From: a virus
Direction: 5' to 3' (one strand)
Virus record (IMG/VR): IMGVR_UViG_3300008259_002068
Span: 1 to 22,103 of that record
Length of the DNA stretch: 22,103 bases
The notes under the pieces were generated by a model. That model did not search any database, was not told the DNA's origin, and worked only from the letters and a program-made list of their open reading frames with translations. Position numbers and translations under genes: made by a program. The number at the start of each line of letters is the position of its first letter. Position 1 is the stretch's first letter. This document shows, in pieces, positions 1,892 to 21,934 of the stretch.

Positions 1892-2115
1892 TATAGTCCG
1901 CCCAATGTTCTAATTCTATCTAGCTCGTCAGTGCTACCCTGCTGCTTCATGAATTCAATGATATTATTATAATCGGCCATTGTAACTACATGATCTCTAC
2001 TAAGTTCAGCAACTTTTTCAGCAACATCATGTAAATCAGTGTCCTGTTTGATTTCTTCACGTGCTAATTCCAGCAATCGAAGAAAGGTAGGGACGTCAAC
2101 TTTGATTATATCCAT
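1891..2115 (-). CDS. Small conserved phage protein (74 aa)
   Basis: This 74-residue protein begins MDIIKVDVPTFLRLLELARE and is acidic and helical, with no signal peptide or membrane segment. It resembles a small protein often found beside structural genes in T4-like marine phages, but I know of no function. Its TAA stop overlaps the ATG of the tail-fibre-like gene (TAATG), a typical coupling arrangement. A late-promoter-like box (GATAAATAC on the minus strand, 2148-2156) lies 33 bases before the start, so the two genes probably form one late transcript. The start at 2115 has only a weak upstream AAGG as ribosome site. Confidence 0.75.
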   Translation of the reverse strand: MDIIKVDVPTFLRLLELAREEIKQDTDLHDVAEKVAELSRDHVVTMADYNNIIEFMKQQGSTDELDRIRTLGGL

Positions 2116-2147
2116 TTTTTTAAACCTTAAATATAGAGTAATACACA

Positions 2148-2156
2148 GTATTTATC
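2148..2156 (-). promoter_or_regulatory. T4-late-like promoter box
   Basis: The minus strand reads GATAAATAC, which matches the T4 late promoter core TATAAATA at 7 of 8 positions. It lies upstream of the 74-residue gene and the tail-fibre-like gene, where a late promoter would be expected. The same ATAAATAC occurs before the structural-type gene at 11530. No sigma-70 -35 element accompanies it. Confidence 0.5.
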
Positions 2157-2164
2157 GGACAACT

Positions 2165-3361
2165 ATGATTAACAAAGAACCATTTCAACGATTAATAGAC
2201 CAGTTAAAAGCCGAGGGAAAATATAGGGTTTTTAATGATATCCTGCGGGAAGCCGGGGATTATCCCTATGCTATATGGTATGGGCCATATAACATCAAGA
2301 AGATAGTTAATTGGTGTTCAAACGATTATCTAGGCATGGGACAGCACAAAGTTGTCCTAGACGCTATGCGTACAGCATTAGATCAAACAGGAGCAGGCTC
2401 AGGGGGTACCAGAAACATAGCAGGTACCAGTCATTACCATGTTGCTCTAGAACACGAACTAGCCACCCTACATGATAAGTCAGGAGCCCTATTATTCAGC
2501 TCTGCCTATGTAGCCAATGAATGGACTTTGATAGCTTTGGCTAAAATAATTCCAAACATAGAATTTGTATCAGATTCTAAGAACCATGCTAGTCTTATAG
2601 AGGGTATGCGTCATAGTCGTGCTCCTAAACATGTTTTTAAACACAACGATCTCAGCGACCTTAGATCAAAACTAGAAGATGTAACATCTAGAAAATCAGT
2701 ACCCTGTGTGGTATTAGAATCAGTTTACTCAATGGATGGCGACATTTCAAAGTTAGAGGAAATTGTTAAATTGTCTAGGTTGTATGCTTCCATAGTTTAC
2801 GTAGATGAAGTACATGCTGTTGGTCTCTACGGCGAGCATGGTGCTGGCATTATTGAACGATTAGGATTAGAAAAAGACGTTGATATAGTCAACGGTACGC
2901 TAGGAAAAGCCTATGGAGTTCAAGGCGGTTACATAGCTGCTGATAAAATAATAATAGATGCTGTCAGATCTATTGCCAGCGGATTTATCTTTACCACTTC
3001 AATGTCGCCTGTAACCTGTGCTGGTGCGTTGGCTGCTGTCAAATATCTAAAACAACACAATGAGCTTAGAATTCAACATCAGGAACGTGCGGCTAGATTA
3101 AAACAGATGTTGAGAGATAACAGTCTTCCTGTTATGGACAGTGAAACACACATTGTTCCTGTACTAGTTGGTGATGCGTTTCGCTGTAAGAAGATATCCG
3201 ATGTGCTGTTAAACGAATATAATATCTATGTTCAAGCTATTAACTATCCTACAGTGCCAGTAGGCACAGAAAGATTAAGATTTGCTCCTACACCTTATCA
3301 TACAGACGCTATGATGAGCGATCTAGTTGATAAACTAACTGTGTGTTTTAATACCCTTTGA
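2165..3361 (+). CDS. hemA: 5-aminolevulinate synthase (ALAS), phage-borne metabolic gene
   Basis: The protein (398 aa, close to the roughly 400 usual for bacterial ALAS) condenses glycine and succinyl-CoA to 5-aminolevulinate, the first step of C4-pathway tetrapyrrole synthesis. It is a PLP enzyme of the alpha-oxoamine synthase family. Visible motifs are NWCSNDYLGMGQH (49-61), the glycine-rich GAGSGGTRNIAGT (76-88), YVDEVHAVGLYG (212-223) with Asp214 and His217 for PLP binding, and GTLGKAYG (244-251) with the Schiff-base lysine Lys248. The opening YRVFNDILREAGDYPYA is specific to ALAS rather than KBL or BioF. I chose the ATG at 2165; an in-frame start at 2039 would run antisense through the upstream gene. 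The ribosome site is weak. The gene sits alone on the plus strand between minus-strand genes, and its last 14 bases overlap the 3' end of the gene at 3348. All catalytic residues checked are intact, so it is probably functional. Confidence 0.93.
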   Translation: MINKEPFQRLIDQLKAEGKYRVFNDILREAGDYPYAIWYGPYNIKKIVNWCSNDYLGMGQHKVVLDAMRTALDQTGAGSGGTRNIAGTSHYHVALEHELATLHDKSGALLFSSAYVANEWTLIALAKIIPNIEFVSDSKNHASLIEGMRHSRAPKHVFKHNDLSDLRSKLEDVTSRKSVPCVVLESVYSMDGDISKLEEIVKLSRLYASIVYVDEVHAVGLYGEHGAGIIERLGLEKDVDIVNGTLGKAYGVQGGYIAADKIIIDAVRSIASGFIFTTSMSPVTCAGALAAVKYLKQHNELRIQHQERAARLKQMLRDNSLPVMDSETHIVPVLVGDAFRCKKISDVLLNEYNIYVQAINYPTVPVGTERLRFAPTPYHTDAMMSDLVDKLTVCFNTL

Positions 3362-18111: not shown

Positions 18112-18747
18112 ATGGAATTTACTGCTGATCAAGTCTGGGGATGTGCTGCAGCTGCTCAACGCATCAACGGGGGCTACTTCAAAGAGCCCGTGTATGATTT
18201 TGACGTAGATCAGAAGAACCCTGTGACCCAGGCCAACAAGCTGATGGTCAAGCAATGGCTTCGCGAGGGCAACTTCGCCCAGATCACCGAAGCCGACTAC
18301 GCTGCGGGCCGCCAAGCCCGGGATCATTTCAAATCCTATACGCTGTTGATGATCGCTGGTAAGCTCAACGAGTTCCAGCAGACTGCCTACAAGATCGCAG
18401 TCAAGGATTCGTTTACGGGCCGCGATATGTATGATTTCGCTGTGGTCAGCTGCTTGCCATCTGTAGCCTCACGCGATCAACAACGCACAGAGCTCAAGCG
18501 GGATATCTATGCTTCTGAGCAACTGACCGGTGCCGTGGGTGCTGCTGTTGTGGGGGATATCACTGTGATCAGCTCTCGCTTCAACCCTGACTACAATAAA
18601 CACAAGATCACAGCCCGTATGGGCGAGAGCTTTGTGGACTTCTGGTTCTCTAAGGAGCTAACAGGGGAGCTGAGGATCAAGGGCAAGATCAAAGCTGTCC
18701 GTGGCGATAAAACAACACAGCTCAACTATGTAAAGATCAGCGGTTGA
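18112..18747 (+). CDS. Unknown phage protein with OB-fold-like C-terminus (211 aa)
   Basis: The protein begins MEFTADQVWGCAAAAQRING and is soluble. The C-terminal third, from VGDITVISSRFNPDYN to GELRIKGKIKAVRGD and LNYVKISG, looks like the beta strands of an OB fold, a common single-strand nucleic acid binding fold. I recall related proteins in other phages and cyanobacteria without a set function. GGAG lies seven bases before the ATG. It has its own promoter. Its TGA stop lies inside the -35 of the next promoter (GGTTGACA). Confidence 0.7.
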   Translation: MEFTADQVWGCAAAAQRINGGYFKEPVYDFDVDQKNPVTQANKLMVKQWLREGNFAQITEADYAAGRQARDHFKSYTLLMIAGKLNEFQQTAYKIAVKDSFTGRDMYDFAVVSCLPSVASRDQQRTELKRDIYASEQLTGAVGAAVVGDITVISSRFNPDYNKHKITARMGESFVDFWFSKELTGELRIKGKIKAVRGDKTTQLNYVKISG

Positions 18748-18772
18748 CAGTAGTTGGGTCCGGTGCTATAAT
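18744..18772 (+). promoter_or_regulatory. Perfect consensus sigma-70 promoter for the MoxR ATPase gene
   Basis: TTGACA (18744-18749), 17 bp, TATAAT (18767-18772). The spacer shares TGGGTCC with the promoters at 15033 and 18054. The leader to the ATG at 18828 is about 50 bases, the longest here. Confidence 0.85.
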
Positions 18773-18827: not shown

Positions 18828-19913
18828 ATGGCAAAAGCACAAGACGTTTCCGTCCGTCAAATTGGTCCAAAGAGTGCGACCAAGTCTATCCGTAAGTCAC
18901 TGGCAGTTCGCCGCCCGGTATTCCTGTGGGGCCCTCCAGGCATTGGTAAGTCTGATCTTGTTAAGCAGATCGGTGACGAACTTGGCCGCGAAGTCATTGA
19001 CGTTCGCCTAGCATTGTGGGAACCCACCGACATCAAGGGTATTCCTTATTACAACTCCGATCAAGGCAAGATGGTTTGGGCTCCCCCTTCAGAGCTTCCT
19101 ACAGACCCAGAGTCTACTGCTATCATCTTCTTGGACGAGCTGAACTCCGCTCCTCCTGCAGTACAGGCCGCTGCCTACCAATTGATCCTTAACCGTCGTG
19201 TGGGCACCTATGTGTTGCCTAAGGGTGTTGACGTGGTTGCCGCTGGTAACCGTGAAGGTGACCGTGGTGTTACCTATCGTATGCCTGCTCCGTTGGCTAA
19301 TCGTTTCCTACACTTGGAGATGAAGGTAGACTTTGAAGACTGGCAAGACTGGGCTACGCTCAACAAGATCCACCCTGAGGTTGTGGGTTATGTAGGCTAC
19401 GCCAAGCAGGACTTGTATGACTTTGACCCTAAGTCAGCATCTAAGGCTTTCGCAACTCCTCGTTCATGGTGCTTCGTTAGCGATCTGCTCAGCGATGACG
19501 ACATCGATAACGAAACCCTTACTAACTTGGTATCGGGTGCTATTGGTGACGGCTTGGCTGTTAAGTTTATGGCTCACCGTAAGATCGCAGGCAAATTGCC
19601 TAAGGCGGAAGACATCCTCGACGGTAAGGTCAAGGATTTGAGCATCAAGGAAGTGTCTGCGATGTATTCTTTGACTGTGAGCTTGTGCTACGAGTTGAAA
19701 GACCGTGCTGAGAAGAAGACCAAGGGCTGGGATGCTATGGCTGATCGCTTCTTCCGCTACATGATGGACAATTTCCCAACTGAGTTGGTTGTGATGGGTG
19801 CCAAGACTGCTCTCAGCAATTACGACTTGCCGTTGGACGCTACAAAGATGGAATCCTTTGATGAGTTCCACAAGCGTTTTGGTAAGTATGTGTTGTCAGC
19901 AATGGAGAATTAA
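18828..19913 (+). CDS. MoxR-type AAA+ ATPase
   Basis: This 361-residue protein has Walker A GPPGIGKS (35-42), Walker B IIFLDE (99-104), sensor-1 Asn141 in AAGNREGDRG, and the arginine-finger segment PAPLANRF (153-160, Arg159). The motif order and spacing are those of MoxR ATPases, which act as chaperones or metal-insertion factors with a von Willebrand A partner (MoxR, RavA, and GvpN or NorQ types). The C-terminal 150 residues are helical. The partner is probably the HExxH/VWA protein at 20095. A GAGG ribosome site precedes the ATG. It has its own promoter and terminator, so the two proteins are made from separate transcripts. Confidence 0.92.
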   Translation: MAKAQDVSVRQIGPKSATKSIRKSLAVRRPVFLWGPPGIGKSDLVKQIGDELGREVIDVRLALWEPTDIKGIPYYNSDQGKMVWAPPSELPTDPESTAIIFLDELNSAPPAVQAAAYQLILNRRVGTYVLPKGVDVVAAGNREGDRGVTYRMPAPLANRFLHLEMKVDFEDWQDWATLNKIHPEVVGYVGYAKQDLYDFDPKSASKAFATPRSWCFVSDLLSDDDIDNETLTNLVSGAIGDGLAVKFMAHRKIAGKLPKAEDILDGKVKDLSIKEVSAMYSLTVSLCYELKDRAEKKTKGWDAMADRFFRYMMDNFPTELVVMGAKTALSNYDLPLDATKMESFDEFHKRFGKYVLSAMEN

Positions 19914-19930
19914 GACCTCGTCCATTGCTA

Positions 19931-19968
19931 GGGCTACGGGTTTCTCAGAGCTCGTAGCCCACCCTTTT
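19931..19968 (+). terminator. Terminator-like hairpin after the MoxR gene
   Basis: GGGCTACG (19931-19938) pairs with CGTAGCCC (19953-19960), followed by ACCCTTTT. The T run is short. Confidence 0.65.
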
Positions 19969-19996
19969 CCGTGCCATCTAGTCACTGGCGGAGAGT

Positions 19997-20035
19997 GCCC
20001 TTAGTGTTGTGGTATGACAACATTAGGGGCTTTTT
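19997..20035 (+). terminator. Strong rho-independent terminator before the VWA gene
   Basis: A 14-bp stem (19997-20010 with 20017-20030, two G-T pairs) around GGTATG is followed by TTTTT. With the hairpin at 19931 it forms a double terminator just upstream of the promoter at 20041. Confidence 0.9.
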
Positions 20036-20040
20036 ATTGG

Positions 20041-20069
20041 TTGACAAGGGTGCCGAGCGGTGCTATAAT
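20041..20069 (+). promoter_or_regulatory. Perfect consensus sigma-70 promoter for the VWA gene
   Basis: TTGACA (20041-20046), 17 bp, TATAAT (20064-20069). AAGGAG follows 11 bases before the ATG at 20095. Confidence 0.87.
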
Positions 20070-20094
20070 ATATACATATTAAGGAGAGCGACTA

Positions 20095-21300
20095 ATGTCA
20101 GATTCAGCAATTATCGAAAAACTCACTACTGCCCGAGTAGGTCTGCTTCTTAAGGCTCCTTTCTTTGGCAACATGGCCACTCGTATGCGTTTGGTCAATG
20201 CTGATGATTGGTGTCCTACTGCCGCAACTAACGGCCGTGACTTTTATTACAATACCAAGTTCGTTGAGAAGCTCTCGGTGAAGAAGCTGGAGTTCTTGTT
20301 TGGACACGAGATCCTCCATTGTGTTCTTGATCACTTTGGCCGTGTTGGTAGCCGTGATCGACAACTGTCTAACATCGCACAGGACTATGCTGTAAACCAA
20401 ATCCTCGTAGATGAGCGTATCGGTGACAAGATCTCCGAAGTTAAGATCTGCTATGACAGCAAATACCGTGGCAAGGCTTGGGAAGAGATCTACGACGAGC
20501 TCTACGAAAAAGCAGAGAAGATCAGTATGCCACAACTGCTCAAAGAGCTGGGTGACCTGCTTGACGAGCACATCAAAGAAGGCGACGGTGCTGGCGAGGG
20601 TGACAAAGAAGGCAAAGGCAAGAAGCCTGGTATGAGCAAGGAAGAAGCACAGGCAATCAAGGACGAGATCAAGCAGGCTATGATCCAGAGTGCCGCGGCC
20701 GCTGGTGCTGGTAAGACCCCCGCAGGTATCATGCGTATGATCAAGAACTTGACTGAGCCTAAGATGGACTGGCGTAATCTTGTTCGTCAAGAGATCCAAA
20801 GCATCATCCGCAATGACTACTCCTTTACACGCCCTAACCGTAAGAGCATGCACAGTGGTGCTATCCTCCCGGGCATGAAAGAAGCAACTACCATTGACGT
20901 GGCTATCAGTATCGATATGTCTGGTTCTATTGGTGAAGAAGATGCTACAACTTTCCTTAGTGAAGTTAAGGGCATCATGGATCAATACGAGGACTTCAAA
21001 GTCAACATCTGGTGCTTTGACACAGACATTTACAACCATCAAGAGATCACACATGACAACGCAGAAGACCTGCTGTCGTATGAACCTCAAGGCGGTGGTG
21101 GCACAGACTTCGAAGCCAACTGGGAATTTATGAAAGAGCAAGGCATTGCTCCTAAGAAGTTCATTATGTTTACAGACGGCTACCCATGCGGTAGTTGGGG
21201 CGACGAGGACTATTGCGATACCATATTCGTTGTCAAAGGCAATGAACACGCAGACGCACCCTTTGGTCAGACTGTGATCTATGAAAAAGAAACTGCGTAA
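20095..21300 (+). CDS. Metallopeptidase-like and VWA-domain protein (partner of MoxR ATPase)
   Basis: This 401-residue protein joins two domains. The N-terminal domain has GHEILHCVLDHF (70-81), a zinc metallopeptidase HExxH motif (His71, Glu72, His75), followed by AQDYAVNQ, as in the DUF2201-type putative metallopeptidases. A Lys/Glu/Gly-rich linker (about 160-185) leads to the C-terminal von Willebrand A domain, with the complete MIDAS metal site: DMSGS (274-278), Thr337 in GGGGTDF, and Asp361 in MFTDGYP. Such proteins accompany MoxR-type ATPases, as ViaA does RavA. It may bind or remodel host protein targets, perhaps with peptidase activity; substrate unknown. The end overlaps the next gene by 20 bases. 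Confidence 0.9.
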   Translation: MSDSAIIEKLTTARVGLLLKAPFFGNMATRMRLVNADDWCPTAATNGRDFYYNTKFVEKLSVKKLEFLFGHEILHCVLDHFGRVGSRDRQLSNIAQDYAVNQILVDERIGDKISEVKICYDSKYRGKAWEEIYDELYEKAEKISMPQLLKELGDLLDEHIKEGDGAGEGDKEGKGKKPGMSKEEAQAIKDEIKQAMIQSAAAAGAGKTPAGIMRMIKNLTEPKMDWRNLVRQEIQSIIRNDYSFTRPNRKSMHSGAILPGMKEATTIDVAISIDMSGSIGEEDATTFLSEVKGIMDQYEDFKVNIWCFDTDIYNHQEITHDNAEDLLSYEPQGGGGTDFEANWEFMKEQGIAPKKFIMFTDGYPCGSWGDEDYCDTIFVVKGNEHADAPFGQTVIYEKETA

Positions 21301-21934
21301 GTTTCTAAGAGCACTCCTTTTTGGGAGTGCCTCTCCTGCTACCCATGATGTGAATCTAGACGCATTCAGCTCTAGCCAAATTGGATCTAAGGTTTGGTTA
21401 GCTGATCGTCTAGAAGAAGTCCTAGCACAACTCACAGCACCTGTTGGCGGATACAAGATCTGGATATACGGCGGCTGGTATGGCATAACCAACTTCATCA
21501 TTAGAGTCCGAGCTAGGATTCCCGTAGAGTTCGTACGCAGCATCGACAAGGATCCCACATGCGAACCTATCGCTGATAAGATCAACAAGTTTTGGGAATG
21601 GCAGGGTTGGCAATTTAAAGCACAGACAGGTGATGCCAATGGTGTGCTGTATGTCAGAGACAACCCCCACATCGTGATCAACAGCAGCATAGAACACATG
21701 GAGCAGCACACATGGTTCAACAACATTCCAGAAGATACGATCTGCGTTCTACAGGTCTGTGATCTACCGCATGAAGACCACGTGGCTGTGATCCGGGACT
21801 TAGATGAATTCAAACGACAGTTTCCTCTCAAAGAAGTACTCTACGAAGGTAAGATGACATTTAACTATCCCACAGGGGATATGTCAAGGCTGATGATCAT
21901 CGGACCCAAAGGGAGTGCCGGCCACTGTGGCTAA
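21281..21934 (+). CDS. Class I SAM methyltransferase-like protein (217 aa)
   Basis: After a basic N-terminus (MKKKLRKFLRALLFG) the protein has IWIYGGWYGITNF (60-72), a motif-I-like loop, then VRSIDKDPTCEPIADKINKF with the acidic residue at the end of strand 2, and VINSSIEHME (near 130-139) at the motif-IV position. This pattern matches a group of small phage class I methyltransferase-like proteins; the substrate is unknown and the SAM loop is not the classic GxGxG. The ATG at 21281 lies inside the end of the VWA gene with no clear ribosome site. A hairpin (21311-21330) forms early in the gene. Confidence 0.65.
   Translation: MKKKLRKFLRALLFGSASPATHDVNLDAFSSSQIGSKVWLADRLEEVLAQLTAPVGGYKIWIYGGWYGITNFIIRVRARIPVEFVRSIDKDPTCEPIADKINKFWEWQGWQFKAQTGDANGVLYVRDNPHIVINSSIEHMEQHTWFNNIPEDTICVLQVCDLPHEDHVAVIRDLDEFKRQFPLKEVLYEGKMTFNYPTGDMSRLMIIGPKGSAGHCG
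21311..21330 (+). other. Hairpin within the start of the methyltransferase-like gene
   Basis: GCACTCC (21311-21317) pairs with GGAGTGC (21324-21330) around TTTTTG, just after the VWA stop. It lacks a following T run, so it may protect the VWA mRNA end or lower downstream expression. Confidence 0.4.

Follow-up and report, generated by a model that had tools for sequence, protein, structure and literature searches.

What does a phage do with a MoxR ATPase and an adjoining protein that carries both a putative zinc-peptidase domain and a VWA domain? The question is posed by a viral stretch of 22,103 nucleotides (the window, i.e. the whole of the DNA that was analysed), in which a sequence-only reading had recognised adjacent MoxR ATPase and HExxH/VWA genes at 18828-21300, with all of the ATPase motifs, a zinc peptidase motif and a complete VWA metal site. 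Both open reading frames are at these positions, their domains were confirmed, the motifs are present and conserved in homologues, and the residue numbers that had been given for Lys41, Glu72 and Asp274 are correct. The two genes are as follows.

18828..19913, + strand: gene for a MoxR AAA+ ATPase (361 aa, PHROG 1297), from domain, PHROG, conserved-residue and fold evidence.
20095..21300, + strand: gene for a DUF2201 protein (401 aa) with an N-terminal putative metallopeptidase domain and a C-terminal VWA-like domain with a MIDAS, from Pfam, PHROG, conservation and fold.

The upstream product is an intact MoxR ATPase, as judged from sequence and predicted fold. Pfam returned AAA_5 (E=9.7e-10) and AAA_3 (E=6.4e-8), both above the cut-off, the protein matched PHROG 1297 (E=5e-101), and in 28 aligned homologues the Walker A residues G38, G40, K41 and S42, the Walker B residues D103 and E104, and the candidates for sensor 1 (N141), arginine finger (R159) and sensor 2 (R212) were all invariant; the AAA+ core, these residues and similarity to the MoxR clade place it among the MoxR AAA+ ATPases. 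The C-terminal part of the predicted model (mean pLDDT 85) is helical, and a Foldseek comparison with solved structures placed NorQ at ranks 1-13 (best E=1.4e-10) and CbbQ at rank 14. NorQ and CbbQ also took ranks 1-4 by VIA (NorQ Z=14.5, with 220 residues aligned and an rmsd of 4.0; CbbQ Z=13.9), with Clp, dynein and other AAA+ folds scoring within 1 Z of them, and the best match of a sequence profile to solved structures was Midasin (E=2e-19). NorQ and CbbQ also work with VWA partners, and the NorQ-NorD and CbbQ-CbbO systems, although only about 15-20% identical to the pair in the window, resemble it in combining a MoxR-type ATPase with a VWA protein.

The pair had initially been likened to RavA-ViaA. 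The shared theme of MoxR plus a VWA partner stands, but RavA-ViaA was rejected as the family of the pair on the basis of domains: as regards the RavA-specific C-terminal region, Pfam found AAA domains only above the cut-off in the 361-residue ATPase, RavA was absent among the sequence or fold matches listed for this protein, the top-ranked folds being NorQ and CbbQ, and the partner carries DUF2201_N, a putative zinc-peptidase domain, whereas ViaA has, to our knowledge, no metallopeptidase domain.

The downstream product belongs to the DUF2201 family, both domains of which were found by Pfam (DUF2201_N, a putative metallopeptidase, E=1.1e-40; the VWA-like DUF2201, E=1.2e-17), and it matched PHROG 1314 (E=2.6e-109). 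The MIDAS is complete and conserved (D274/S276/S278, T337 and D361), and the MoxR gene is thereby neighbour to a VWA gene with a MIDAS, as in a MoxR-VWA pair. The HEILH motif at residues 71-75 is likewise conserved, and H71, H75, H80, R83, D97 and N101 were invariant in 28 sequences. HExxH was also present in 62 of 5000 shuffled versions of the protein and is by itself a weak signal, so that the assignment depends on the Pfam match and on conservation, which together lift it far beyond chance: every one of the 164 distinct phage proteins scanned that span the region has HExxH (162 by script pattern, together with the remaining two, one truncated and one with a variant further on), as do 12 of 13 much more distant loci from phages or phage plasmids. 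Nearly all phages retain Glu72; Atu_ph07 has Gln in its place (HQILH). The model of the partner (mean pLDDT 78, pTM 0.53) has a clear VWA fold at residues 263-400 (Z about 12), the arrangement of its domains being uncertain because of the pTM value. Comparison of its profile with solved structures gave weak matches only, mostly to VWA domains, and the nearest viral models were phage proteins, several of them named metallopeptidase or VWA-like. Many phage records name PHROG 1314 proteins HNH endonuclease, despite the DUF2201_N and DUF2201 domains; this identity, which is also the label of PHROG 1314, was considered and rejected, as Pfam gave these two domains and no HNH domain.

The implication of the sequence-only reading that such a pair was new has to be abandoned, for the pair has already been described, in jumbo phages in 2021, and is the same as gp24/gp25 of N4; the copy in the window is an ordinary member. 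In group 2.2 jumbo phages, Iyer et al. 2021 reported MoxR paired with a vWA protein whose N-terminal part is a fused metallopeptidase (ASV44729.1 and ASV44728.2; PMC7824862). The genes for these two proteins adjoin in Atu_ph07, and the proteins match those of the window, in the same order, at about 40-43% identity and with HQILH in place of HEILH. In N4, gp24 followed by gp25 has the order and domain types of the window, but at only 28-30% identity and in the much smaller genome of a podovirus; the two are core genes of N4-like phages, listed without known function (PMC4193335; PMC7650795), and are middle transcripts (PMC4193335). Another paper (PMC9525291) names gp24/gp25 rIIA/rIIB-like; in the N4 record the rIIA/rIIB-like genes are separate ones, contrary to that label. 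In the literature on DUF2201 and N4 gp24/gp25 that was searched, no experiments on the function of the phage members (interaction, substrate, ATPase or peptidase) were found.

The MoxR protein and its VWA partner probably act together, a conclusion that is well supported by the comparison of sequences because the two have a near-equal distribution among phages, conserved order and adjacency, and parallel divergence, and because MoxR also lies upstream of DUF2201 in bacteria. A search for the pair in other phages had been proposed, with lack of co-occurrence in related phages as grounds for refutation, and the two do co-occur: among 50,697 public phage records the partner was found in 744 and MoxR in 840, the records for partner and MoxR per host genus being 187/187 for Escherichia, 112/112 for Pseudomonas, 70/70 for Klebsiella and 34/34 for Erwinia. 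The excess of MoxR includes 40 mycobacteriophage records in which, among the matches listed, part of the ATPase domain only was matched. Both genes were present in 138 of the 150 viral loci searched (149 fetched plus the window; among those fetched, the window's own pair recurs once and some contigs are represented twice); one locus, at a contig edge, had the partner only, and 11 had MoxR only, ten of which stop at a contig edge, the exception being L120. Where both were located on a viral contig, MoxR preceded the partner without a change of strand; the distance between them was mostly 100-290 nt, and a few contigs had larger gaps, from about 400 to 3650 nt. Genes intervene between the two in phi30-3, phage G and SCTP-2, and in Vequintavirus ECP32 they lie apart and on opposite strands, so that co-transcription of the pair is not needed. 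A third conserved partner was sought among the intervening or adjacent genes of phi30-3, ECP32, SCTP-2, an Acinetobacter plasmid and the window, and these have no common Pfam family. The divergence of MoxR and partner is parallel (r=0.975), as expected from joint descent.

The pair is also found outside phages. A scan of MAG contigs yielded only five loci, 50-55% identical to the query, which may come from phage contigs that binning had assigned to bacteria; to obtain bacterial relatives, 299 genomes were therefore searched for the family instead. DUF2201_N scored above the cut-off in 13 of these genomes, comprising one MAG with a phage-like contig, two marginal cases without a phage-profile match and ten convincing ones (L232-L241). 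In these sampled proteobacterial genomes MoxR was directly upstream of DUF2201 in all ten convincing loci and HHxxH replaced HExxH in six of the ten, the sample being small and the counts only indicative. In this respect several bacterial pairs differ from that of the window, and the HHxxH of the bacterial subgroup (within L232-L238) would remove the usual catalytic glutamate. Cellular and plasmid pairs otherwise consist of the same two adjacent families, as on the Synechocystis plasmid pSYSA, where MoxR is directly upstream of the DUF2201 gene with an overlap of 4 bp; a Cupriavidus plasmid differs in having an extra gene between the two, which resembles DUF3150 below the cut-off.

Transcription of the pair in the window was approached through the following signals.

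18744..18772, + strand: sigma-70-type promoter before the MoxR gene, TTGACA-N17-TATAAT, 12/12 matches, with TG before the -10.
19931..19960 (about), + strand: first intergenic hairpin, with a 13-bp stem and a 4-nt loop, then a weak T run (fold -22.1 kcal/mol).
19997..20030, + strand: canonical intrinsic terminator with a 14-pair stem and TTTTTATT tail.
20041..20069, + strand: sigma-70-type promoter before the metallopeptidase/VWA gene, TTGACA-N17-TATAAT, 12/12 matches, with TG before the -10.

Each gene therefore has its own consensus promoter, exactly as had been claimed. The accompanying claim of a double terminator holds with a qualification. There are two hairpins, the second of them canonical, but the first has only its weak T run, and a near-identical contig (L002), with an intergenic gap of 112 nt that is shorter than the window's, has one hairpin followed by CCTTTTTT; this is the equivalent of the first hairpin of the window, the second not being seen in the L002 gap. 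Among 156 distinct homologous gaps, a 12/12 promoter was found in 74 (0 in shuffled gaps), a promoter with at least 10/12 matches in 121 (5/156 shuffled) and a terminator-like hairpin in 131 (6 in shuffled gaps), the shuffling having preserved base composition alone. On the strength of these counts, separate transcription of the MoxR and partner genes appears to be conserved in relatives. Such promoters are, however, general in the window: between 9000 and 22103, 10 sites agree with the promoter consensus at 11 or 12 of 12 positions, all on the + strand with a spacing of 17 and before many genes, so that the possession of their own promoters carries little information about the MoxR/partner pair specifically. 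These ten sites suggest a phage that depends on promoters of the host type throughout. Elsewhere in the window, 2039-3361 (+) encodes a 5-aminolevulinate synthase (TIGR01821, E=3.4e-171), homologues of which, at 69-70% identity, occur in two related large viral contigs, and a paper of 2024 reported 5-ALA synthases encoded by phages (PMC11480375); 3976-4572 (-) encodes a ClpP-type protease (NF001368, E=1.5e-97) whose relatives are labelled head maturation protease in PHROGs.

As to the role of the pair, the reading that we favour, and hold to be somewhat more probable than not, is that it is a phage copy of a widespread MoxR-DUF2201 module which remodels a target of the replication/transcription phase, and that the zinc-peptidase domain may clip this target. 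Phages of very different kinds, and bacteria as well, keep the two genes together. By analogy with NorQ-NorD, CbbQ-CbbO and Midasin, MoxR would form a hexamer, and the VWA protein docked on it would use its metal site to recruit the target, which would then be remodelled or unfolded by ATP hydrolysis. The gene neighbourhood and the middle transcription of N4 gp24/gp25 suggest a target that belongs to the replication or transcription phase, either a host protein or a phage complex for replication/transcription, rather than to the virion. Once remodelled, the target is probably bound by the zinc-peptidase domain, which may also clip it, clipping being the least certain step.

The foremost competitor, which we regard as possible though clearly less probable, is the published proposal for the same jumbo-phage pair, namely a chaperone of virion assembly with proteolytic processing of structural proteins; Iyer et al. 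2021 drew it from a comparison with p618/p892, the proteins of tail development in Acidianus two-tailed virus (PMC7824862). There is a viral MoxR-VWA precedent (as cited in PMC7824862 and PMC7159879), and some neighbours of the pair are in keeping with it: the gp24/25 homologues of roseophage RPP1 lie near virion proteins of the mid-phase structural module (PMC4193335), the head-completion gene gp4 of RaK2 is about 5 kb upstream of the pair, and 38 of 122 related loci have a virion-structural-like gene family on the opposite strand, about 5 kb downstream. The conserved neighbours that can be recognised in the 122 loci are, however, mostly concerned with replication and nucleotide metabolism, being a 5'-3' exonuclease family (60 loci), a QueE-like protein (49), thymidylate synthase (36) and DHFR (22); several neighbours commoner than these belong to no known family. 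N4 gp24/25 sit between RNAP2 and dCTP deaminase, the nACB1 pair adjoins a helicase and a DNA polymerase, the Slicko01 pair is near a clamp-loader subunit and a DNase, and in Atu_ph07 and Phosso the genes near the pair include DNA polymerase I and RNA ligase. In the window itself neither the gene before MoxR (18112-18747) nor the 217-aa open reading frame that shares 20 nt with the end of the VWA gene (21281-21934, +) had a Pfam or PHROG match. These neighbours weaken the virion-assembly proposal and are circumstantial, sequence-based evidence for a role in the replication/transcription phase; evidence of this kind is weak, because phage chaperone genes need not adjoin their targets. Two further points against virion assembly are the middle transcription of N4 gp24/25 and the presence of the pair in short-tailed podoviruses and jumbo phages alike, which makes one shared structural client seem less likely.

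A split energy-dependent protease, in which the MoxR ring would unfold a target and pass it on to the partner's zinc-peptidase domain, is in our view rather unlikely, and its fullest form, a two-gene machine with the peptidase on a VWA adaptor, at work in hundreds of phages in the middle phase, still more so. The conservation of HExxH among phages and the six invariant residues of the partner argue for it. Against it, Atu_ph07, the published type example, has HQILH and most of the convincing bacterial relatives have HHxxH, so that the catalytic Glu is not needed everywhere; the third zinc ligand is not established, and we know of no proteolytic chamber in MoxR rings. The earlier suggestion that the peptidase motif raises the chance of target cleavage is thus tempered rather than lost: with Glu72 near-universal in phages and His in its place in some bacterial relatives, cleavage by the partner is plausible.

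A device for host takeover or counter-defence, directed at host proteins, is an improbable explanation. Broad distribution and middle expression are compatible with it and one Vequintavirus MoxR gene lies close to rIIA, but strong conservation and core status in N4-like phages fit a constant target better than an arms race, and PADLOC gave two weak matches for the ATPase only and none for the partner. Least probable of all is a machine that, like NorQ-NorD or CbbQ-CbbO, inserts a cofactor into or activates a specific enzyme, e.g. one of nucleotide metabolism, since the nearest solved folds and the presence of such enzymes among the neighbours are offset by the fact that no single enzyme gene accompanies the pair across all phages examined and that no metallopeptidase domain is known to us in NorD or CbbO.

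The interest of the pair lies in its family, and the copy in the window adds little, because the pair is already known. Its members are two core genes of N4-like phages, and jumbo phages, Vequintavirinae, plasmids and bacteria carry them too. What would be new is the target of the pair, or proof of proteolysis, and N4 in laboratory E. coli is an easy system in which to find the target; the neighbourhood data point to replication or transcription, against the published virion proposal.
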